From the IMG/VR virus record IMGVR_UViG_3300033388_002432, positions 1-44,139 of that record: 44,139 nucleotides of DNA; one strand, written 5' to 3'. The notes under the pieces were generated by a model. The model was given only the letters and a program-made list of their open reading frames with translations. It was not told the origin of the DNA and did no database searches. The stretch comes from a virus. Shown here piece by piece: positions 10,038 through 43,903 of the stretch. Made by a program: the position numbers and the translations under genes. The stretch's first letter is position 1. Each line of letters opens with the position of its first letter.

Positions 10038-10496
10038 TTATTTTTGTAGCCAATAGATTGTACCGTCAGTCCCAACCCCAAATTCATGTGGGTGTTGTTT
10101 CATGTAAGACTCAGCGTAAGACTTGAACAATCCATCAGCATCTTCGGATGAAGTACCGTACCCTAGTTTAACCTTACCAGTTTCTTTGTTTATCTCAATA
10201 CCTAATTTAGCTAAGTCTCTAGTTTCTGTTTTAGTTACTTGGTCTTTTAAAGCTTTTTGATAATATTCAACCCTATCTTGTTTATCTTGTGCCGCTTGTT
10301 TATCCATCTGATATACTTTAATACCACCAGCTAATAGTGTGATAGCCACCAAACCCCTAGCTATCCAATCTTTGATACCTTCATCTAAATTCTGTATTTC
10401 TTCTTCTGTTAAGAAATGTTTTGTTTTTAAAACATGGTTTAATTCTAATCTTTGATTAGCTTCCTTAATAACCATTCTTTTATCCTGTCTTCTCAT
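10038..10496 (-). CDS. Accessory protein with capsid-targeting-like N-terminus A
   Basis: The first 34 of 152 residues are identical to those of the neighbouring 10503-11000 protein. They start MRRQDKRMVIKE (I-K-E then A at residue 13) and include a second site FLTE at 28-31; both fit T4 gp21 cleavage. The mature part is unrelated to its neighbour: one probable membrane helix (WIARGLVAITLLAGGIKVYQ, about residues 44-63), then a charged coiled segment and GYGTSSEDADGLFKSYAES. No enzymatic motif is seen. It is the last gene of the leftward operon. Confidence 0.75.
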   Translation of the reverse strand: MRRQDKRMVIKEANQRLELNHVLKTKHFLTEEEIQNLDEGIKDWIARGLVAITLLAGGIKVYQMDKQAAQDKQDRVEYYQKALKDQVTKTETRDLAKLGIEINKETGKVKLGYGTSSEDADGLFKSYAESYMKQHPHEFGVGTDGTIYWLQK

Positions 10497-10499
10497 TTT
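10393..10499. repeat. 107-bp direct repeat, copy 1 (N-terminal cassette)
   Basis: By reading base by base it is identical to 10897-11003. It spans the start codon and first 34 codons of the 10038-10496 gene plus three upstream bases. The genes differ completely after the repeat ends. Confidence 0.95.
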
Positions 10500-10502
10500 G
10501 TC

Positions 10503-11000
10503 TTAATTTTGTTCTAATTTATTTGTTAATCTTCTTTTAGCCACATCATTATCTATTATTAAGTACTCATCAACTATATATGTACCTAAATTACCCAAAG
10601 TAAACCCATCTATTATTTGACCATCTTTAAGTTTTGATTTTAGACTATATAATGTATTACCAGATACTAAATTGGGGAATATTGAAATTAAAGTAGGCAA
10701 TCTTTTTGTTATACGTTTTTTTAGTTGTGATATAATTTCGTATTTATATTTAGGTAAAACATTTAACGTTTCTTTATCCATTTGAGGTTGAACAAATAGG
10801 TCATTAAAGTCCGTTTGTTCTATTTCTTTTTCTGCTTGTTCAAACTTACTATTCGATTTTTTAAACCTATCAAATATACCCTCATTCGATACACCATGTA
10901 TTTCTTCTTCTGTTAAGAAATGTTTTGTTTTTAAAACATGGTTTAATTCTAATCTTTGATTAGCTTCCTTAATAACCATTCTTTTATCCTGTCTTCTCAT
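10503..11000 (-). CDS. Accessory protein with capsid-targeting-like N-terminus B
   Basis: The protein has 165 residues. The N-terminal 34 residues equal those of the next gene; after residue 34 it continues HGVSNEGIFDRFKKSNSKFE. The body is basic and helical, with KYEIISQLKKRITKRLPTLI and a C-terminal segment LGNLGTYIVDEYLIIDNDVA. No family is recognised. If cleaved at I-K-E or L-T-E, the mature protein would begin at residue 13 or 32. Confidence 0.75.
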   Translation of the reverse strand: MRRQDKRMVIKEANQRLELNHVLKTKHFLTEEEIHGVSNEGIFDRFKKSNSKFEQAEKEIEQTDFNDLFVQPQMDKETLNVLPKYKYEIISQLKKRITKRLPTLISIFPNLVSGNTLYSLKSKLKDGQIIDGFTLGNLGTYIVDEYLIIDNDVAKRRLTNKLEQN

Positions 11001-11003
11001 TTT
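10897..11003. repeat. 107-bp direct repeat, copy 2 (N-terminal cassette)
   Basis: Identical partner of 10393-10499, offset by 504 bases. Perfect identity, including synonymous positions, indicates recent duplication or gene conversion. Confidence 0.95.
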
Positions 11004-11281
11004 TATTTACACAGTAAATTAGCTATCTTATGTTGGTAGGTGTTTAAGTTATCCAAATCATTACCCAATCGGTCATTATCCTTCTTCAACTGAATTAGTA
11101 ATTTTTCTATTTTTGGGTCATCTTCTTTTGAGACGTGTGATTTATTAATCAAATCAATTAAGTCTTCGTAAGTATCAACACTAAAATCGTCACATATATT
11201 ACGTTCAGCACTATTAGAGTTAGCTAAATCAGTTTGTTTATCTGATTCTTCTTTTAATATCTTACGTATTAAACTTCTCAT
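11003..11281 (-). CDS. Small protein with type 1 targeting-like peptide
   Basis: The 92-residue protein begins MRSLIRKILKE, with a cleavage-type L-K-E at residues 9-11 followed by E. The rest is acidic and ends in a helical, probably coiled, segment (KIEKLLIQLKKDNDRLGNDL). It ends 2 bases upstream of the 10503-11000 start codon, within one operon. Function unknown; a packaged internal head protein is inferred. Confidence 0.7.
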   Translation of the reverse strand: MRSLIRKILKEESDKQTDLANSNSAERNICDDFSVDTYEDLIDLINKSHVSKEDDPKIEKLLIQLKKDNDRLGNDLDNLNTYQHKIANLLCK

Positions 11282-11282
11282 C

Positions 11283-11690
11283 TTAATAATAATTACGACC
11301 TTCGTTTCTAGCCTTTTCTCTCATATAATTTTGGTACTGACGTTGTTTTTCTTTCCGTTTCTTAGCTTCAGCCACCTCCTTATCTTTATTCGCTATTTGA
11401 TAATCATTGATTTTACTTTTCATTTTAGAAACCTTAGTAATAAATTTACCAAAATCTTCAGAGAACTTATCTATTTCACTGTGATAACCATCAGAACCAG
11501 ATACTGCATTAGCAATACTATCTTTAAACTCCATCTTTAGATCTTCTAAAGCTCTTTCTAATTTATCCACGGCTGGATAAGCTGGATGTTTAGTTACTGT
11601 AGTTTTTTTAGTTTCCTTTTCTTCTTCTTTTATAACTTTCTTAACTAGGTACTCTAATTGAGACTCGTTTATTTTTATTACTTTTTTCAT
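11283..11690 (-). CDS. Small basic protein with type 2 targeting-like peptide
   Basis: The 135-residue protein begins with MKKVIKINESQLEYLVKK and reaches V-I-K-E at residues 19-22. This is the longer of the two N-terminal peptide types in this window. The body is helical and very lysine-rich at the C-terminus (AEAKKRKEKQRQYQNYMREK), suited to contact with DNA. It is the first gene of the operon and has a candidate late promoter 17 bases upstream. Confidence 0.7.
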   Translation of the reverse strand: MKKVIKINESQLEYLVKKVIKEEEKETKKTTVTKHPAYPAVDKLERALEDLKMEFKDSIANAVSGSDGYHSEIDKFSEDFGKFITKVSKMKSKINDYQIANKDKEVAEAKKRKEKQRQYQNYMREKARNEGRNYY

Positions 11691-14303: not shown

Positions 14304-16103
14304 CTATCTTAATTCTCTAACATCAAATGTACGAATACCATCAACGTTGATTGTTCCGTAGAAACGGTTATTAACCATTTTCTTAGCGTAACGAGTCATG
14401 ATACCTTTAACAGGTACGAAGTTGAACGGGTTATACATTGTAGGTGTCAATTGTAATGGAACGTAAGGTGCGTAAATGTACCCAGTATCCAATAATGATT
14501 GACCTTTATGTCCAAGTAACACGGTGTTAGCTGGAGCGTATGGGTCTCTGTATACAGTATATCTACCTGATAAAGAACCTACTCTCTCAATACCCATGTT
14601 ATAGTTATCTTGTTCCGGAGAAGCGTTAGATACGTGGAAGTACTCTAAGTCATCAAAAATAGCTGATACCTCAGAAGAAACCACGATAAAGTTAGCCCCA
14701 CCTCTTAAAGTAGACTTATGGATTTGTGCTGAAATTTGGTTGATTGCCGTAATCAAAGTCTGGTTCCAATCTTTTTGAGTGTAAGCAGCTTGACCAGAAG
14801 GTAATCTCTTCCATCCGTCATAATCCCATCTTAGTGTCCAAGCCGCACCTGTTCTTAAGTCTCTTAAGATTTCACGGTCAATTTCCGCCGCAACTTGTTC
14901 TGATAATAATGCTGTCAATTCAGCTTCAGCATCAATGTTATGGAATGCTGATACATCTTGTGCTAACTCAGGAGTCCAAGTAGCTCTTAGTTTTCTTTCT
15001 GTTACAGAAACCGTTACAGATTCTAATTCGAAAGAAACTTCTCCCATTTGAGATTCAAGTTCTAAGTTTGCGTACTGTCTGAAAGTAACTGCGAAGTTAG
15101 TTCCACCTAAGTCAGTTGAAGCAACACCAGGAACGATAGAAGTTGTTCCAGAAGCAGCTCCGATGTAACCATCTAAAGTACCACCTTCACATGTTGCACA
15201 TACTGGGTGAGTTAAATCAGCCTCTAAGTATATACATCCATCAGCGTCACAGATATCACCATAATCAACGATACCTCTTCCGTATTTTTGAGTAACAACT
15301 CTAACTGGTACTTGGTCACCAGAATTAAAGATAGTTTCACCATCTTTATCAACGATAGGACCATCAACAGTTACCATTAATGATGCTAAGAATTCTTCAG
15401 AATCCATTTCATTTCCGTTAGGACCAGTTAATCTACCAGCTCCAGCGTCATTGAAGTTACACATTTTAAGGATTTGAGTTCTAACCGAACCGTCACCAGC
15501 AAATGCAGAAACACCACCAGTAAATTCATTACCAGCTTGACCATCAGTACATGCTGTCCAAACAACTGGAGTAGCGTCAGTTACAACAACAGTAATTTTA
15601 CCTTTTGATTGGTCAAACATTCCGTCATTGTAGAATCTATCATAAAGATTCTTAGCACATTCAGAATAAGTAGTCTCATCACAACCTGCTGATACACAAG
15701 TAGTAACTACTGGTTCACCATGTTTTGCTGTACCACCTGATGCTGGCCATCCGTTTTCGAAAATTCTGTCAGATGTTTTAGGTACGAAGTAGAACAATTT
15801 ACCGATTGGTAAGTTCATAGCTTGTACAGATACGATATCGTTAGCTAATAATTTAGAAAATACTCTTCTAACGATTGGGAAAACTACAGTTTCGAAAGAA
15901 CCAGAGTTCCCTGCGTCAGTAGTTTCGCTAATTAGAGAAGATGCAGTGTTTTCATATAACAAAGCAATGTTTTCTCTTGTGTGACCATTAAGTCCTTCTA
16001 AGAACCCTAAGTCATTCCATTTAGAGACAGTCGCTTCACGAACAGCTTTTTGGTGCTTAAGTCCGATGTTACCAACTTCTCCTGATTTTAATAAATATCC
16101 CAT
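14304..16103 (-). CDS. Major capsid protein, T4 gp23-like
   Basis: This 599-residue HK97-fold capsid protein belongs to the T4 branch. Matching segments include VSVQAMNLPIGKLFYFVP (residues 91-108), the ERKLRATWTPELAQDVSAFH block (369-388), and the C-terminal YIYAPYVPLQLTPTMYNP and MTRYAKKMVNNRFYG. A gp21-type site SLISE ends at Glu60, matching the place where T4 gp23 loses its first 65 residues. It is about 80 residues longer than T4 gp23. The extra length fits a cysteine-containing region at 136-305, with a C-x4-C-x11-C-x2-C cluster at 285-305. It follows the scaffold gene and has its own terminator. Confidence 0.95.
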   Translation of the reverse strand: MGYLLKSGEVGNIGLKHQKAVREATVSKWNDLGFLEGLNGHTRENIALLYENTASSLISETTDAGNSGSFETVVFPIVRRVFSKLLANDIVSVQAMNLPIGKLFYFVPKTSDRIFENGWPASGGTAKHGEPVVTTCVSAGCDETTYSECAKNLYDRFYNDGMFDQSKGKITVVVTDATPVVWTACTDGQAGNEFTGGVSAFAGDGSVRTQILKMCNFNDAGAGRLTGPNGNEMDSEEFLASLMVTVDGPIVDKDGETIFNSGDQVPVRVVTQKYGRGIVDYGDICDADGCIYLEADLTHPVCATCEGGTLDGYIGAASGTTSIVPGVASTDLGGTNFAVTFRQYANLELESQMGEVSFELESVTVSVTERKLRATWTPELAQDVSAFHNIDAEAELTALLSEQVAAEIDREILRDLRTGAAWTLRWDYDGWKRLPSGQAAYTQKDWNQTLITAINQISAQIHKSTLRGGANFIVVSSEVSAIFDDLEYFHVSNASPEQDNYNMGIERVGSLSGRYTVYRDPYAPANTVLLGHKGQSLLDTGYIYAPYVPLQLTPTMYNPFNFVPVKGIMTRYAKKMVNNRFYGTINVDGIRTFDVRELR

Positions 16104-17507: not shown

Positions 17508-17912
17508 ATGAGAAGTCTAATTAAAAAAGTATTGAGTGAAGCTGGTGTATCAGACACTAAAAAACCAAAGTATTTGATAAGTAAATTAAAAAATAAGATT
17601 GTGGATGATTTGGGTAAGGTTTACCTAGATGTCACAGGTAACAAACTAGTACTACCACCAATAGATATTAAAATAGATGATACCATAAAAGATGGTAAGA
17701 TAGCAGGATTTAACCATCCTAAAAATGGTGAGAATGGTAAAATGGGTATTAAATCTAAAGCTTTAGAGGATGTAGAATACTTAAAGTGGGTAATAACTCA
17801 CGAACTTATACATGCCGCAGTTGGTGAAGACTTACCCAAATCAGAAGAACATGAGGGTTTATTTAAAAAATTAGCTGAAAAGATTAATTTACCTAAAGAA
17901 TATTGGGATTAA
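17508..17912 (+). CDS. SprT/zincin-like metallopeptidase with type 1 targeting peptide
   Basis: The 134-residue protein starts MRSLIKKVLSEA, with L-S-E at residues 9-11 as a gp21-type site. The C-terminal half has WVITHELIHAAVG: a HExxH zinc motif at 98-102. A third probable ligand, His115, is in EEHEGLFKKL, the spacing and HxxxF context of SprT-like peptidases. The rest of a SprT zinc ribbon is absent, so it is a minimal catalytic domain. It is the only plus-strand gene within the head module, with its own promoter element and terminator. I infer a protease packaged in the head and delivered at infection, or used during head maturation. Confidence 0.75.
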   Translation: MRSLIKKVLSEAGVSDTKKPKYLISKLKNKIVDDLGKVYLDVTGNKLVLPPIDIKIDDTIKDGKIAGFNHPKNGENGKMGIKSKALEDVEYLKWVITHELIHAAVGEDLPKSEEHEGLFKKLAEKINLPKEYWD

Positions 17913-18267: not shown

Positions 18268-18789
18268 TTAATTGAAAAAAGTATTTCCTCCCGTTGCTCT
18301 AGAAAATCTACCTTTAAACATGTTATTACTTCTTATCAAAGTATCACCATATTTTTTAGCTTTAGGTAAAAATTCCATCACTAGTTTTTTGAGTTCTTCT
18401 TCGTATTCAGATTTTGTGTAAGTAGAAACCATATTAGATATTAACCTAATTCTTTTTACTAATGATTTAAGGTGTGTAATAAATTTTTTACCACCCTCAA
18501 TAACATCATCCTCCGTAAAATCTTTTAAAACGTTTTCAGTGTCTTTAATCACCTCAGACGTAACCTTATCTAAATCACCAATAATAGAATTAGATAAAGA
18601 GAACTTACTATAACCTTTTTCACTATCTAATAGTGAGTTTGCTATATCCGTTAGTAAATCCATTAAGATTTGATAACTACTAGTTAATATACCCATGCTA
18701 GCTCCAGCATGTTGACCCATGACACTTAAATCATCATAACCACCAGCCTCCTTGAGGAGTTCTTCCTTTATTATTTTACGGATATCCAT
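18268..18789 (-). CDS. Helical protein with type 1 targeting-like peptide
   Basis: I place the start at 18789 (MDIRKIIKEELLKEAGGYDD), not at the ATG at 18834, which would overlap the upstream gene by 38 bases. The 173-residue protein then begins with a basic peptide holding I-K-E at 7-9 and L-K-E-A at 12-15, both gp21-type sites. The remainder is all-helical (SMGILTSSYQILMDLLTDIA; FITHLKSLVKRIRLISNM) with no enzyme motif. Its position next to the protease gene suits an internal head or core protein, like T4 gp67/gp68 or the internal proteins. Confidence 0.7.
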   Translation of the reverse strand: MDIRKIIKEELLKEAGGYDDLSVMGQHAGASMGILTSSYQILMDLLTDIANSLLDSEKGYSKFSLSNSIIGDLDKVTSEVIKDTENVLKDFTEDDVIEGGKKFITHLKSLVKRIRLISNMVSTYTKSEYEEELKKLVMEFLPKAKKYGDTLIRSNNMFKGRFSRATGGNTFFN

Positions 18790-18796
18790 AAAATAA

Positions 18797-19123
18797 TTAC
18801 TTTTTCTCTTTAGAAGCGTCTCTAATACTACCAATAATACCAGCTATCTGACCTTTAGGTACACCCACCATTTCAGCAAACCTAACAATAGCTTCAGCTT
18901 TTGGTTTTGGAGCTGTTCTATCAGCTATCTTATTAAAAAATGTCATCACCGCACTAGTACTAGACATTTTATTAAAAAAATCTTTAACTAATTTACTCCC
19001 TTCTTCATCGTTATCACCCTCATCAGATGAGTTAGGATCCATTTCTTCTTCTCTAATAATTTTTTTGACTAATAACTCTAAGTCAGATTCGTTTAATTTT
19101 ACAATTCTTTTTTTCATTTTCAT
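18797..19123 (-). CDS. Small protein with type 2 targeting-like peptide
   Basis: The 108-residue protein begins with MKMKKRIVKLNESDLELLVK and K-I-I-R-E, with I-R-E at residues 23-25. A short acidic linker (NSSDEGDNDEEGS) follows, then a helical domain, FFNKMSSTSAVMTFFNKIAD and VGVPKGQIAGIIGSIRDA. A start at the third codon (19117) is also possible. It begins 116 bases below the protease gene end and is preceded by an unusual GC-rich tandem repeat. Confidence 0.7.
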   Translation of the reverse strand: MKMKKRIVKLNESDLELLVKKIIREEEMDPNSSDEGDNDEEGSKLVKDFFNKMSSTSAVMTFFNKIADRTAPKPKAEAIVRFAEMVGVPKGQIAGIIGSIRDASKEKK

Positions 19124-19239: not shown

Positions 19240-19971
19240 TTACAATAAAAATTTATCTAAACTATCTAATAAGTCAGAGTCATCTTCTATTATTAATTTT
19301 GTTTTATCCCCTTTGGTAGACTCCATGAAAGGTTTTAAATCTTTTTCCGAGGTAGATATCCAAGAACCTGGTGTTGATGGAGAAGTAACTATATCCCAAC
19401 AAATTAATTCAAAATCATCCTGTACAATATTCTTACCATTTTCATTCTTTAAAGAACCCACTCCTCTAGATGAGATACCAACGGTCCAACCCTTCCTAAT
19501 CATATTTAATACTTTATCACCGACAGATGAAATAATACCTGATTTAAGGTAACCTGGTGTTGTATCTAACTCCATTTTACCCATAAGTGTTCTACCATTC
19601 CACCAAATCTCTGAAATCATATGTGAAACTCTGTCAGCATCAATAATTGAAGACTCTGGGTGGTTTAATTCTCCTAAAGAAGTACCCATATCTATAAACT
19701 CTTGGTACCTCTTAGATTCTCTTTTTAATATCTCTTCTGGGTATACTCTCCCATTCTTGTTCTCTACACCCCATTTTTGTAATACGGCATAAATTTCTAT
19801 TTTATCTGGTAGTGTACCATCTTGACCTAAATTTATTCCTGATTTGAATTCATTGATTAGGTTATGGTTAGAACATACCCCATCTTGGCAAGTTAGTTCG
19901 GAAGATACGAATCCAGAATCGTATTCCACTAGATACCCATACCCCTCTTCTCCTGGTTTTAATATTTTCAT
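19240..19971 (-). CDS. Prohead maturation protease, T4 gp21-like
   Basis: The 243-residue serine protease of the herpesvirus-assemblin/T4 gp21 fold shows NKNGRVYPEEIL (residues 71-82), the catalytic-His block LGELNHPES (His104), and the nucleophile block TVGISSRGVGS (163-173, Ser167/Ser168). SPSTPGSWI follows at 198-206. The T4 enzyme cleaves capsid, scaffold and internal proteins after Glu in I/L-x-E sites inside the prohead. The same motif recurs at the N-termini of many small proteins here. The N-terminus has an extra Cys-containing segment (TCQDGVCSNH) absent from my memory of T4 gp21. Own promoter element upstream and terminator both sides. Confidence 0.92.
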   Translation of the reverse strand: MKILKPGEEGYGYLVEYDSGFVSSELTCQDGVCSNHNLINEFKSGINLGQDGTLPDKIEIYAVLQKWGVENKNGRVYPEEILKRESKRYQEFIDMGTSLGELNHPESSIIDADRVSHMISEIWWNGRTLMGKMELDTTPGYLKSGIISSVGDKVLNMIRKGWTVGISSRGVGSLKNENGKNIVQDDFELICWDIVTSPSTPGSWISTSEKDLKPFMESTKGDKTKLIIEDDSDLLDSLDKFLL

Positions 19972-22374: not shown

Positions 22375-24258
22375 TTATGTTAATATATCACTTTCATCGA
22401 AATTTTCTTCCTTCAATAACCTATCAATACCATCAGTCATCATGATAATATCCTCATTTTTCTTTTTACCCTCCAATAGAAGATTGTCAATAACACCTTC
22501 ATCACCTCTAAAACCTTCACCGAAACCTTCAGTATCACCTCCAGTATCACCTCCGAATCCACCTCCAGTATCATCTCCGAATCCACCTCCAGTATCATCT
22601 CCGAATCCACCTCCAGTATCACCTCCGAATCCACCTCCAGTGTCCCCACCTTCAGTGTCTACAGTGTCTTCACCACCCATTTTTTGAGTCATAATATCAC
22701 CATACAATTTATCTACTTTATCGAAATAACCAGTCTTAGTTATGACTTCGGGTGTTTTTTCTAATTCAGCTGCTGCAGCTTTCTCTAGTCTCTGTTGTTC
22801 CAAATCTAACTTTATTTCATCTTCAGACCAATTGAATATGTTCTTTTTAGCCCACGTATGTGAGGTTGGTGCTATACCATCAGTAGCGGCAACTAAATCT
22901 TTGTATAATAATACTTTCTCTTTCCACTGTTCTACCTTTAACATTTCACCTTGTGTCGATGGGTTGTTTAATGATAATTTAAAGTTACTAAGTTCTTCAT
23001 GGAAACCTAACATATATAGGTGTACTATAGCTATTTTATTTAATTCTTGTATCATAGCTTGTTGTATCCTATTGATAGTTCTCGCAAATCTAATGTCCAT
23101 TAAAGCTAAATTTTTACCCTCACCAATAGGTTCCTCAAATCCTAAAAACGTTTTAGGTACTCTAAGTGCTGTTACCATCTTTCTTTGTATAAATTGTATA
23201 TCAGCTATTTGGTCTAGATTAGTTGCTCCAGGTAGGGTCTCTATAGGACTCTGTGCGTTAGGGTCTCTAACGGGTACAAAATAATCTTGGTCTACGGCTA
23301 AAGTATTGTACCTAACGTCTAGTTGACCTGTTTTATTATCTGCTGTCTGAGTTCTTTTAAATTTATTAGCAACCTTCTGAACATAAGATTCCACATCCTC
23401 ATCGTCTATGTTACCTACATATACTTTAAACACTCTTCTTTCTGGTGCTCTAGTTACACGATACACTAACATAGCGTCCTCCGCTAATAATAATTGCCTC
23501 CAAGTTCTCCTAACCTTATCTAAAACAGATGTACCATATGGTAATTTTCTGTCATCACCTAATAATCTAAAATGAGCTACTTCCCACGCGTTGAAACTTA
23601 TGTTCTTTGATTTCCATTCGAACTTAACTTCTTTTTTGGAATCATCATTTGTGGTAGAGTTTGTTTCATTATAATCAAAATTATTAGAATCACTCCTACT
23701 TATTTCAATATTTGTTAATTGTGTGGCTCCAATTACACCATATTTATAGTTTAATTTTAAATGTACAAAATTGTCACCGTATTTACATGTATTTCTTGTC
23801 CACATTGGTAGATTGGAATGAATATCTAAAACATTAAAAAATAAGTCTTCTAAAACTTTTTTAATCCTAGAAGAATCTGAATATATAGACATTATCTGAC
23901 CTTGTTCATTTAAGGTACAACTTTCTTCAGCCATTGTTTCAAGAGAAACGGCTATTTCTGGTGTAAACTCCATAGCCTCATAGTCCATGTAAGAAGCCAA
24001 CCTAGTAGTTTCATAGTATGTAGCTTTTTGATACATGTCATTCTCAATTTTTTGCCATTGAGAATCTAAATAACTTTGTTGTTGTAGTTGTAATTTAGTC
24101 TTTTCGAATTCCTCCCTAGACTTACTAACAATTAGGTCTTTATCTGTTAAATTATACTTTGGGTTAAGGTTAGTATCACTTCTCATGGTACCCCCACCTT
24201 GACCAAAAACTGTGAACAACTTTTGATATATAGTTAGGTTATCTTTTTTATCTGCCAT
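22375..24258 (-). CDS. Portal protein, T4 gp20-like
   Basis: This 627-residue portal subunit would form the ring through which DNA is packaged. Typical T4-family segments are DKVRRTWRQLLLAEDAMLVY then RVTRAPERRVFKVYVG, KMVTALRVPKTFLGFEE, and MDIRFARTINRIQQAMIQEL. It is about 100 residues longer than T4 gp20. The extra length is a C-terminal tail with four to five 9-residue GGGFGDDTG-type repeats (about 535-575), then an acidic helix ending NFDESDILT. The gene lies between terminase and protease genes as in T4. Confidence 0.93.
   Translation of the reverse strand: MADKKDNLTIYQKLFTVFGQGGGTMRSDTNLNPKYNLTDKDLIVSKSREEFEKTKLQLQQQSYLDSQWQKIENDMYQKATYYETTRLASYMDYEAMEFTPEIAVSLETMAEESCTLNEQGQIMSIYSDSSRIKKVLEDLFFNVLDIHSNLPMWTRNTCKYGDNFVHLKLNYKYGVIGATQLTNIEISRSDSNNFDYNETNSTTNDDSKKEVKFEWKSKNISFNAWEVAHFRLLGDDRKLPYGTSVLDKVRRTWRQLLLAEDAMLVYRVTRAPERRVFKVYVGNIDDEDVESYVQKVANKFKRTQTADNKTGQLDVRYNTLAVDQDYFVPVRDPNAQSPIETLPGATNLDQIADIQFIQRKMVTALRVPKTFLGFEEPIGEGKNLALMDIRFARTINRIQQAMIQELNKIAIVHLYMLGFHEELSNFKLSLNNPSTQGEMLKVEQWKEKVLLYKDLVAATDGIAPTSHTWAKKNIFNWSEDEIKLDLEQQRLEKAAAAELEKTPEVITKTGYFDKVDKLYGDIMTQKMGGEDTVDTEGGDTGGGFGGDTGGGFGDDTGGGFGDDTGGGFGGDTGGDTEGFGEGFRGDEGVIDNLLLEGKKKNEDIIMMTDGIDRLLKEENFDESDILT
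22536..22652. repeat. 27-bp tandem repeats in the portal gene
   Basis: About four near-identical 27-bp units (ACCTCCGAATCCACCTCCAG core) encode the Gly-Phe-Asp repeats of the portal C-terminus. Copy number may vary between relatives. Confidence 0.85.
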
Positions 24259-29090: not shown

Positions 29091-31039
29091 TATTCAAACT
29101 CTACTTCATCTTCAGCTTTTGGACCTGGTTCCTCACCTGGTGTAATTGATGGTGGTGGTGTAAATGGTCTTCTTGAAGGTCTCTCACTTGGAGACTTTCT
29201 TTCTGGTTTACCAGGTTTTGTATCTGGTTGACTTGGTCTTTTATCTGGAGTTCTTTGTGGTGCTGGACTCATTTCTATATCTTCTACCATATCTATCTCT
29301 AATTCTTGTTTTTCTTTTTTAGTTAAATCTTCTCCAAAAATTTCGATAAAATCTTCGACACTGTCAACAGGTTCACCTGAAAAGTTATTACCTTTCATTT
29401 CACCAACTTCAATATCACCTACAGAGTTAATTCTAGAAACAAGAACTTTTTTACCATCACCATTAATGATATCTAAATAAATTACACTTTCTTCTGGGTC
29501 TTCAGATGTTGCCTTTTTTCTTAATTCAACACCCATCCCATATCTTTTAACAACAGTCTCAACGTCCTTATAAGCTTTTTCTTGTTCGTAAGTTTCCATT
29601 TGGTCGTTTAAGTGGTCTTCAGTCATATAATCACCTTCTTCCATAAACTCAGTGTCATAAGGTAATTTATGTTTTGACCATTTTTCAACAGGGTCCAAGT
29701 CATAACCTGGTGCTGATTGTTTGTGGTAATGTTTTGATATATCTTTTTCAGCTTGTTTATAAGCCGTTTTATATGGTGACCTACTATACTTTTTAGCCAC
29801 ACTAATTTTAGGACCGTAAAGGGCTTCCATTTCTTCTGGACCCATTTCGTCTTCCTCAATATCCAATAATAATTTATCTTCAACATTCTTATCTTCAGGT
29901 TTAGCAACTTTATCATCTTCGTCACCACCTAATTCAGTATCTTCTTCTTTATCTTCTGATTCATAAGCTCTGGTTAACCCACCGTTGTATCTATTGGCTC
30001 CACTAACATCTATATTAGTATCCTCATCCATGTAAGAATCATAATCATCATACTCACTATCTGATTCAGTTGGTTCCCAATTATATTGACTCATACCATC
30101 AAATTCGTCATCCATGTAGTTGTCATAACTTTCTTCCATTTCCATTTCTTCAGATGGAACTTCTTCTTCTTCAGAATTATCACCGTTGTCTTCGGAACTT
30201 TTAACAGTTTTAATAATATCTTTTTTATCTTCAGAATCCATAGTATCTAAATCTAAAGCTGATAATACGGATTTAGCAACCCATTTCTGCATATCAGAAG
30301 AAATATCCTCAATATCTCTAAGTTGTTGACCTAATTTACCAGTGGTACTTTGTATGTCTTTTATTTCATCTTCGGTATCATCAAAAGATTCTTCTTCAGA
30401 CTCACCACCTTCTTCAGACTCAAAGTCAAAAGATTCTTCTCCAGACTCATCACCTTCTTCAGTTTCAAAGTCAAAAGATTCTTCCTCAGTTTCTTCACCT
30501 TCTTCAGATTCAAAGTCAAAAGATTCTTCCTCAGTTTCTTCACCTTCTTCAGATTCAAAGTCAAAAGATTCTTCACCACCTTCTTTCTCTTCCTCATCAC
30601 CAAAACTGAAGTCATCTTCTACAGAAGACTCAACTTCTTTAGGTTCTTCTTTTTTAGATTTTTTTTTGTTTAGTTTTAAGACATATTTTTTTTCATTTAA
30701 AGAATCAGATTCTAAAATGTTAACGTTACTAACATCAAAATGATTATTAATTTCTTCAAACATTAAATTTAAATGTTTTGCTGCTTCACTAAAAGATTTA
30801 AAATTGTTTTTACCTTTATTAGCAACACCACCCACATAATCAAAATCAGACTCTTTTAGTTTTTCTGTAGTCTTACTTTCTTTTATATAATATTTTTTAT
30901 TCTCTCTACTAATAGCGTATGTATTACCATTAATACATTCTTTAACCAAGTCAAAAGATGATAAATCATTACCCTCTTTTGTTGAACTGATATTAGATAA
31001 AACTAACATCTTATCTAAAGTACTTTTTCTCATTTTCAT
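29090..31039 (-). CDS. Large, very acidic repeat protein
   Basis: The 649-residue protein has an ordered N-terminal domain (NGNTYAISRENKKYYIKESK, about residues 1-125). It continues with four copies of a 15-residue acidic repeat FDFESEEGEETEEES (about 155-215), more acidic low-complexity sequence, and a proline-rich tail (QRTPDKRPSQPDTKPGKPER). The N-terminal domain resembles small phage domains that sense or bind in the head, but I cannot name it. Extreme negative charge resembles prohead core components and DNA mimics. Its place upstream of the 640-residue protein suggests a joint structural role. Confidence 0.6.
   Translation of the reverse strand: MKMRKSTLDKMLVLSNISSTKEGNDLSSFDLVKECINGNTYAISRENKKYYIKESKTTEKLKESDFDYVGGVANKGKNNFKSFSEAAKHLNLMFEEINNHFDVSNVNILESDSLNEKKYVLKLNKKKSKKEEPKEVESSVEDDFSFGDEEEKEGGEESFDFESEEGEETEEESFDFESEEGEETEEESFDFETEEGDESGEESFDFESEEGGESEEESFDDTEDEIKDIQSTTGKLGQQLRDIEDISSDMQKWVAKSVLSALDLDTMDSEDKKDIIKTVKSSEDNGDNSEEEEVPSEEMEMEESYDNYMDDEFDGMSQYNWEPTESDSEYDDYDSYMDEDTNIDVSGANRYNGGLTRAYESEDKEEDTELGGDEDDKVAKPEDKNVEDKLLLDIEEDEMGPEEMEALYGPKISVAKKYSRSPYKTAYKQAEKDISKHYHKQSAPGYDLDPVEKWSKHKLPYDTEFMEEGDYMTEDHLNDQMETYEQEKAYKDVETVVKRYGMGVELRKKATSEDPEESVIYLDIINGDGKKVLVSRINSVGDIEVGEMKGNNFSGEPVDSVEDFIEIFGEDLTKKEKQELEIDMVEDIEMSPAPQRTPDKRPSQPDTKPGKPERKSPSERPSRRPFTPPPSITPGEEPGPKAEDEVEFE
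30382..30590. repeat. 45-bp imperfect tandem repeats
   Basis: About four units with the shared core CTTCAGATTCAAAGTCAAAA encode the acidic 15-residue repeats of the 649-residue protein. Confidence 0.85.
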
Positions 31040-33291: not shown

Positions 33292-33843
33292 ATGAGAAAT
33301 ACTATTAAGAAAATATTAAAAGAAAATGATTTTGATTGGACTAAAGATGTTGAACCTATTAGTGTAGAACAAATAGAGGATAAAATTGATGTTATAACTG
33401 ACTATGGGGCCAGCAATTGGTTTTTAAATCATATCGCCAAAAAAGTACATGGATTAGGTTTATTAAATAAAGAACTGAATCTATTGACCGATATAATAAA
33501 ACAAGTGGCAGAAACCTCACAAGAAGACGGTAAACAATTGGGTTGGGGAGAAGGTAATAGAGAGGGTTACAATGAAGGTTTTACAGAAGGAGAGAAAGAT
33601 TGTGAAGATGACATCAATCATCTTCTACAAAACGCTCAGGATGAAGGTTACGATGAAGGTTACACTGATGGACTTAAACAAGGAGAAGAAGAAGGTAAAG
33701 ACCAAGCCGAAAAAGAATTTAATGAAATAAAGGAAATTGTATATAATAAAGGTTTCGAAGAAGGTAGGATGTATGAGGCTGGTTTAGATTCCGAAGAATA
33801 TGAAAAAAGACAAAGTGGATTAGACTTTGAATACGAAAATTAA
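33292..33843 (+). CDS. Type 1 targeting-peptide protein with EG-x-x-EG repeats
   Basis: The 183-residue protein begins MRNTIKKILKENDFDW: a type 1 peptide ending at L-K-E (9-11), directly followed by a DFDW motif also found in the divergent nucleotidyltransferase. The middle is a repeat region with glycine every four residues (GWGEGNREGYNEGFTEGEKD; DEGYDEGYTDGLKQGEEEGK), a GxxxG-like helical pattern as in FliH-type proteins. Highly acidic. Function unknown; likely a packaged filamentous or helical protein. Followed six bases later by another targeting-peptide gene. Confidence 0.7.
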   Translation: MRNTIKKILKENDFDWTKDVEPISVEQIEDKIDVITDYGASNWFLNHIAKKVHGLGLLNKELNLLTDIIKQVAETSQEDGKQLGWGEGNREGYNEGFTEGEKDCEDDINHLLQNAQDEGYDEGYTDGLKQGEEEGKDQAEKEFNEIKEIVYNKGFEEGRMYEAGLDSEEYEKRQSGLDFEYEN

Positions 33844-33849
33844 TTAAAA

Positions 33850-34179
33850 ATGAAAAAAATTATAAGATTAACTGAGTCACAAATGGCTAAATTAACTGAA
33901 GTTAGAATAAATGAGGTAACCGCGGCCGAAGTGGCTAAAGTATTAGAAACTATACCTTGTACGGGTCAGAGTGTTAAAAGTTTAATATCTAAAAAATTGT
34001 TAGAATATGGGTTCAAGGATGTTACTGTCAAATTCCTAAATTATGGTGAAAGTAATAAATTATTAAATTACATAGTTCACACAGAAGGACCTATTTTTAT
34101 GGTAGAGACCGTTAGTAATTCCAAAGTATCACCACCTTGTATGGAGGTTCTTAGTGTTATACCATACCTAAGAACTTAA
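33850..34179 (+). CDS. Small protein with type 2 targeting-like peptide
   Basis: The 109-residue protein starts MKKIIRLTESQMAKLTEVRI, then N-E-V; L-T-E (15-17) and I-N-E (20-22) are possible cleavage points. The mature part is alpha/beta (VLETIPCTGQSVKSLISKKL; VTVKFLNYGESNKLLNYIVH). No family recognised. It ends one base before the converging KTSC gene. Confidence 0.7.
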   Translation: MKKIIRLTESQMAKLTEVRINEVTAAEVAKVLETIPCTGQSVKSLISKKLLEYGFKDVTVKFLNYGESNKLLNYIVHTEGPIFMVETVSNSKVSPPCMEVLSVIPYLRT

Positions 34180-43224: not shown

Positions 43225-43842
43225 TTAGTAACTTATTTTACCTAGGTAATGTTCACCACCTTCGTCATCATCTTCAGTGGTAAAGTCGTCCTGAAAAATA
43301 GTATGAGCCATATCACCTGTTGTATTTACTAAAATCTCATTAGAAATCCAATCATCCCGATCAAAGTAAAAACCACCAGCCGACATCATTTGAGGTATAT
43401 CCCTAAAATGACCTTGTTCATTGATGAAATAATCTACAGGACCATACATATCTATTTCAGACTCTATTTCGTCTGTTCTACCATCGACATAATCTGTTTT
43501 ACATTCTTCAATTAACTGTTCGAATTCACCTTCTTTTTCATCTCTCTGCATCTCCAAATCAGTTATTTGTTCATCCATTTCTTCTATCTCTTCTTCGGTT
43601 TCTGCGTATTGTCTTTGGTCTGACTCAAGGCTATCTATATCACTATCTAAATCTTCGATTTCAGATTGTAGATTATCATAGTCTAAACCTCTACCCTGTT
43701 CTACACATATTTCACGGTCATCAAAGCCATCTAACATATATGTAGCTTCTTCCTCCGCGTAAGCCCTTGAATCATTCATTGTTATATAACTTTCTAAACT
43801 ACTTGGGTCCATGTACTGAAATACCTCACTTTCATCCATCAT
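43225..43842 (-). CDS. C-terminal part of a split acidic coiled-coil protein
   Basis: The 205-residue frame opens MMDESEVFQYMDPSSLESYI. It has a long acidic coiled coil (NLQSEIEDLDSDIDSLESDQ through about residue 110) and a folded C-terminus (YGPVDYFINEQGHFRDIPQM; GGEHYLGKISY). Just before its first Met, the same frame encodes SITDYYE, the end of the adjoining small protein. Removing one copy of a 38-bp duplication would fuse the two frames. Likely once one gene; whether this part is now translated by restart is unknown. Confidence 0.6.
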   Translation of the reverse strand: MMDESEVFQYMDPSSLESYITMNDSRAYAEEEATYMLDGFDDREICVEQGRGLDYDNLQSEIEDLDSDIDSLESDQRQYAETEEEIEEMDEQITDLEMQRDEKEGEFEQLIEECKTDYVDGRTDEIESEIDMYGPVDYFINEQGHFRDIPQMMSAGGFYFDRDDWISNEILVNTTGDMAHTIFQDDFTTEDDDEGGEHYLGKISY

Positions 43843-43903
43843 TTCGTAATAGTCTGTTATAGATTACTTTCATCCATCATTTCGTAATAGTCTGTTATAG
43901 ATT
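43828..43903. repeat. Perfect 38-bp tandem duplication
   Basis: The 38 bases at 43828-43865 are repeated exactly at 43866-43903. As 38 is not a multiple of three, the extra copy shifts the frame and creates a stop, dividing one gene into the 43857 and 43225 frames. Confidence 0.95.

Follow-up and report, generated by a model that had tools for sequence, protein, structure and literature searches.

Capsid-targeting leaders in T4 and their probable counterparts in an uncultured phage

In bacteriophage T4, a short N-terminal leader suffices to load proteins into the prohead, after which it is removed by gp21, a protease whose cleavage motif is L/I-X-E (PMC9026906). The T4 internal proteins IP1-3, which block host restriction enzymes, have only their N-terminal leader in common (PMC12373910). 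In the giant phages of the phiKZ/SPN3US type, many head proteins are cut after glutamate by a gp21-like protease (PMC9026906). At the DNA level, the adjacent T4 genes ipII and ipIII share an exact repeat of 47 bp, of which 15 bases precede the ATG and the other 32 start with it. The repeat covers the codons of MKTYQEFIAE, whose last residue is the cleavage-site glutamate, plus 2 more bases, and unrelated sequence follows. T4-type phages also harbor mobile regulatory cassettes (promoter/stem-loop), small repeated intergenic modules that promote the shuffling of accessory genes.

The stretch of DNA analyzed here (the window) is a complete metagenomic IMG/VR record of 44,139 bp from an uncultured phage of the T4 superfamily. 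It is probably a fragment of a larger genome, because a relative that is ~86-95% identical over most of the window (IMGVR_UViG_3300030102_006934, hereafter the 380-kb relative) spans 380 kb. The window encodes a gp23-type major capsid protein and a gp21-type prohead protease of the S77 family, the presumed processing enzyme for the leaders described below (Table 1). Three repeats lie elsewhere in the window: a 45-bp tandem repeat present five times (30336-30646), from which a 649-aa protein takes the acidic repeat ESFDFESEEGEETEE, 12- and 24-bp repeats in the head-gene region (22512-22655), encoding the Gly/Asp-rich tail (GGGFGDDT) of a 627-aa protein, and a 38-bp tandem repeat with 87% identity at the beginning of a 205-aa gene (43816-43891).

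The locus under study resembles T4 ipII/ipIII in that two adjacent genes with unrelated cargo begin with a leader that is identical at the DNA level and has L/I-x-E at its end, in a genome encoding an S77 protease. The T4 leader is 10 residues long (MKTYQEFIAE), whereas that of the window comprises ~31 residues of unrelated sequence, and the repeat includes 3 bases before the ATG rather than 15. Because direct reading revealed no resemblance between the two leaders beyond x-L/I-x-E, the window leader is better said to work like the T4 leader than to be its homologue. A further difference from T4 is that relatives of the window phage carry several leader families per genome, exchanged between cargoes. 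Unlike the ejection proteins of phiKZ/SPN3US-type phages, those of the window would accompany a gp23-type capsid and an S77-family protease, and short leaders are common to unrelated small proteins. Unlike the mobile regulatory cassettes of T4-type phages, the window repeat is coding sequence starting 3 bases before an ATG, not an intergenic promoter/stem-loop module.

Judged by its capsid protein (~42% identity), Flavobacterium phage immuto (NC_055915) is among the closest cultured phages, and it likewise has gp23/S77 head genes. In immuto, adjacent genes also begin with related leaders, MADNFNLRSFLTENKLTKN...LKE and MENFDLKKFLVENKLTTN...LKE, identical at 45 of 75 bases before the sequences become dissimilar, although this leader family is not that of the window. 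At L115 4661-5961 of immuto, the related leaders DNFNLRSFLTENKLTKN and ENFDLKKFLVENKLTTN occur on adjacent genes, one of which is annotated as a cob(I)alamin adenosyltransferase.

One leader in front of two unrelated proteins

The two leader copies form a single maximal direct repeat of 107 bp that is 100% identical and cannot be extended, as the earlier note had observed. On the minus strand it reads AAA, ATG, codons 2 to 34 and CA, the first two bases of codon 35. The block thus has 34 codons with the ATG counted among them, rather than the start codon and 34 more given in the earlier note. The encoded peptide, MRRQDKRMVIKEANQRLELNHVLKTKHFLTEEEI, comes from the start and 33 further codons, and the repeat also takes in bases on either side. 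At the base composition of the window, the longest repeat expected by chance is ~16 bp, and ~10^-49 repeats of 107 bp are expected. Transcription runs from the cargo 2 gene (11000-10503) to the cargo 1 gene (10496-10038), both of which are intact and in frame. Beyond the leader the two bodies do not align, in agreement with the complete divergence noted earlier, and BLAST similarity between the proteins ends at residue 48/49. The predicted protease site, L29-T30-E31, sits three codons before the end of the repeat.

Two copies of the leader are found in the record and one in the 380-kb relative, while a degenerate pattern for LNHVLKTKHFLTEE revealed none in other IMG/VR contigs. Likewise, 85,000 prokaryote genomes were scanned for a 32-base exact piece of the leader without a match. 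Across ~1.4 Mb of relatives, the only other long in-register leader repeats on unrelated bodies were of 25 and 22 bp, besides a 72-bp case beside an N gap.

Neither cargo was assigned a function by PHROGs, Pfam or sequence searches of solved structures. Matches to SeleniumBinding and to a transcriptional regulator were discounted as weak. The AlphaFold2 models of the two cargoes are poor (pLDDT 68 and 50), a PDB fold search with cargo 1 gave no match at E below 0.9, and tblastn with cargo 2 against 50,697 phage records gave none.

Table 1. Positions of the leader genes, head genes and associated sequence features; coordinates are those of the window unless another record is named.
Feature	Position	Strand	Remarks
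Gene with cargo 1, 152 aa, body starting near NLDEGIKDWI	10038..10496	-	91% identical in the 380-kb relative, same leader
Leader copy 2, 107 bp, before cargo 1	10393..10499	-	Exact repeat, identical to copy 1
Predicted protease site L29-T30-E31, cargo 1 gene	10404..10412	-	L/I-x-E motif, T4 gp21 specificity (PMC9026906) and family test
Gene with cargo 2, 165 aa, body starting near NEGIFDRFKKSNSKFEQ	10503..11000	-	Body 73% identical to L007 7084-7524
Leader copy 1, 107 bp, before cargo 2	10897..11003	-	Exact repeat
3' end of the repeat, GAAGAAATACA (E-E-I)	10897..10907	-	GAGGAAATACG at this place in the old leader of L007
Predicted protease site L29-T30-E31, cargo 2 gene	10908..10916	-	L/I-x-E motif, T4 gp21 specificity (PMC9026906) and family test
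Neighbor gene	11003..11281	-	Short leader MRSLIRKILKE, then E
Neighbor gene	11283..11690	-	Leader MKKVIKINESQLEYLVKKVIKE, then E; same cargo in L035 behind MRIRDRKNNMLKANKQVLGILKE
gp23-type major capsid protein	14304..16103	-	PF07068 E=4.9e-72
Leader gene with SprT-like body (under the Pfam cut-off)	17508..17912	+	Leader MRSLIKKVLSE, then A
Leader gene	18268..18789	-	Leader MDIRKIIKE, then E
Leader gene	18797..19123	-	Leader MKMKKRIVKLNESDLELLVKKIIRE, then E
gp21-type prohead serine protease (Peptidase_S77)	19240..19971	-	PF03420 E=3.5e-28; phrog_207 E=1.4e-41
Leader gene	33292..33843	+	Leader MRNTIKKILKE, then N and a DFDW motif
Leader-like gene	33850..34179	+	MKKIIRLTESQMAKLTEVRINE
14-bp direct repeats TATTGGTTACAAAA	380-kb relative, 160232 and 161347 (L021 232-245 and 1347-1360)		

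The same cargoes behind other leaders

Both cargoes occur elsewhere with a different N-terminus, which supports the cassette shuffling proposed in the earlier note. A 73% identical cargo 2 is found in L007 behind a leader that runs MKHSQLKQLIKEE...VLNE, the junction reading MKHSQLKQLIKEEIRSVLNE and then GLFDRF, and cargo 1 recurs in L004/L006 (41-42% identical) behind MNKEFLHMQKLAGLITES. Similarly, the gene at 158962 of the 380-kb relative and that at 14575 of L035 share one body behind different leaders, with identical DNA near the junction from AAAGAAGATATTTTAGAATTA (K-E followed by D) onward. The body of the MRRF-leader gene of the 380-kb relative is found in L035 behind MKNLKEIKLMMERLESPRLTQTELNHKKNLLKE. 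Here the DNA is the same over AAAGAAGATATTTTAGAATTAAAACAAATGTCTAAACAAATC but different before it, which places the breakpoint at the K-E codons of L/I-K-E. The body of the 135-aa gene, too, occurs in L035, where its leader is MRIRDRKNNMLKANKQVLGILKE.

Clustering of the boundary at L/I-x-E was seen in a larger set of leaders and cargoes drawn from 80 capsid-gene loci, in which the families RYMFFSNLEQ, TSDxGGRGSYxAPL and APIDYEGPERM each stand behind several leaders. L/I-x-E lies at most 12 residues from the start of the shared cargo in 35 of 44 distinct leaders from seven cargo families, a count to be read with the motif being short and the leaders helical and glutamate-rich. In 5000 trials with shuffled leaders, the mean was 10.7 and the highest count 22 (p=2e-4). 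These shuffles control composition only, and some of the cargo families tested had been picked from a list of changed N-termini.

At the junction of cargo 2, the short match between the 3' end of the repeat and the corresponding bases of L007 (GAAGAAATACA and GAGGAAATACG) is a possible microhomology seam where the exchange may have happened. The residues H-G-V-S-N-E behind the new leader appear to be left over from the end of the leader that cargo 2 had before. Because this remnant reads V-S-N-E rather than L-x-E, L/I-x-E is matched solely by the site within the block, a point counted against the preferred explanation.

Other leader genes are scattered over the window (Table 1), and leaders of the MRR type are found on at least 6 unrelated bodies, one of them an AAA_33 P-loop domain. 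In L016 (11859-14330), from the 380-kb relative, enzyme domains can be recognized in leader-like genes: an MRRF leader precedes an AAA_33 P-loop domain, and MKYFIRKRLLEE precedes a NUDIX domain. Shortly past the L/I-x-E of many short leaders lies the motif [DE][FW][DE]W[VIAT], typically DFDWVKD, and 20 of its 21 distinct early occurrences fall in leader-like proteins. This motif was seen at 33292-33843 of the window, in L013-L031 of the 380-kb relative, and in L035 and L036.

Adjacent pairs of older appearance are also present. The MKHS genes of L007 are alike at 35 of 39 bases and then at 31 of 81, and the MRRF genes of the 380-kb relative are alike at 60 of 93 bases. These two pairs and that of immuto are older versions of the same leader sharing. 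Over the 380-kb relative, adjacent genes shared a leader class in 13 cases against 9.6 by chance, which is not significant (p=0.11).

The locus in a close relative

In the window, the order of the locus is the 135-aa gene, the 92-aa gene, the MRRQ leader with cargo 2 and the MRRQ leader with cargo 1. The 380-kb relative has the 135-aa gene, an MRRF-leader gene, the 92-aa gene, the MRRQ leader with cargo 1 and an MRRY-leader gene, so that the identical leader occurs there once, on cargo 1 only, and cargo 2 is absent from the locus. Between relatives, the locus has gained and lost entire leader genes. All three copies of the leader are identical (0 of 107 bases differ between window and relative), whereas 45 of 355 bases differ in cargo 1 (a 462-bp match at 90.3%, with all changes outside the block). 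However, divergence between the two phages is patchy, the 135-aa gene being ~99% identical, hence the identity of the leader alone gives no date for the copying.

In the 380-kb relative, 14-bp direct repeats (TATTGGTTACAAAA) stand on both sides of the MRRY-leader gene, which has no counterpart in the window. One copy, TATTGGCTACAAAA, with one base different, is kept at the junction in the window. These flanks fit a deletion or an insertion by recombination between short repeats, a process reported for T4 (PMC9391042).

Origin and probable function of the leader

The explanation favored here, with a probability of about 0.78, is that the 107-bp block is a portable leader for T4-like capsid targeting, with a predicted cut after L-T-E (residue 31), which was recently recombined onto cargo 2. 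A small protein would be guided to the core of the prohead by its first ~31 residues, and a gp21-type protease would then cut after L-T-E, so that the cargo remains in the head until its ejection into a new host. Joining of the leader to cargo 2 by recombination, perhaps where GA(A/G)GAAATAC forms a short match across the seam, would have produced tandem genes with one leader and unrelated cargoes. The duplication is exact, the bodies are unrelated, the same cargoes occur with other leaders, and the boundaries cluster at L/I-x-E. That the leader proteins are packed, cut and ejected is probable by analogy with T4. The lack of visible resemblance to the T4 leader and the non-significant grouping of leader classes along the 380-kb relative count against this explanation. 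The earlier description of the leader as a targeting peptide gains support from L/I-x-E at the junctions, the gp21-type protease in the window and the precedent of T4 ipII/ipIII.

The most serious competitor, plausible but held at less than even odds, concerns only the route and not the function: a leader that is portable as well, but on a cargo 2 gene that came whole from another phage already having this leader, with the leader serving as homology arm for the recombination. It would give the same leader-cargo 2-leader-cargo 1 anatomy, it agrees with the gain and loss of complete leader genes at the loci of relatives, and recombination at the leader may itself explain why the leader, but not cargo 1, is unchanged in the 380-kb relative. 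Against it, neither the search with cargo 2 nor that with the leader pattern in IMG/VR found a phage with the leader on cargo 2 alone. The earlier note had the leader copied onto a new cargo; a new joining of leader and cargo is upheld, which may have come about by copying within this genome or by arrival of a ready-made fusion with cargo 2.

It is improbable that the shared N-terminus is a swapped module with a role other than packaging, such as translation control or the binding of a partner common to these proteins. The leaders are modeled, at low confidence, as short basic/amphipathic helices, which would suit such a role, but their boundaries coincide with the gp21 cleavage motif. The repeat also holds just 3 bases upstream of the ATG and therefore no promoter or ribosome site, and a constraint on DNA or RNA is argued against by the silent sites that differ among related leaders (CAG/CAA and GAA/GAG between the window and L040).

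Because the record is metagenomic and the repeat shorter than a typical read pair, a chimeric join of two strains at a shared 107-bp sequence might be suspected. This is very unlikely, since both genes are intact and in frame, the junctions between leader and cargo 2 and between the end of cargo 2 and the next leader each require their own spanning sequence, a false join at a single repeat would not yield a second copy, and swapped leaders are seen independently in other assemblies. Least credible are ancient full-length paralogues, the alternative raised in the earlier note, here taken as tandem genes whose bodies diverged beyond recognition while gene conversion held the leaders identical, as the bodies lack similarity, each has homologues behind unrelated leaders in other phages, and the 380-kb relative carries just one of the two genes.

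An extension of the portable-leader explanation is that the codons of the protease site are themselves the recombination seam. On this view, the need for each leader to finish with (L/I)-x-E, after which acidic residues usually come, would put GAAGAAGAA-like stretches at every leader/cargo boundary of AT-rich genomes, and in-frame recombination of unrelated leaders and cargoes could proceed through such short matches. The result would be a self-perpetuating cassette system that loads new proteins into the head, an idea that is doubtful at present.

Significance for T4-like phages

Leader swapping as a means by which the cargo set grows, as put forward in the earlier note, is supported, but it is not a new mechanism, since leader sharing between internal proteins is known from T4. 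The kind of arrangement is thus already described, while the leader families, their length and their reassortment in this clade are new. T4-like phages are known to evolve in this way, and the locus is a fresh and clean case from a new clade with new leaders, which shows how such a leader/cargo fusion looks when fresh. More broadly, large T4-like phages of an uncultured clade reassort leaders and cargoes, and the breakpoints lie at the predicted cleavage site. Because T4 proteins with such leaders block host defenses, a catalogue of leaders would be useful for finding injected proteins, and would pick out, by sequence alone, dozens of candidates per genome, most of them without an assigned function.
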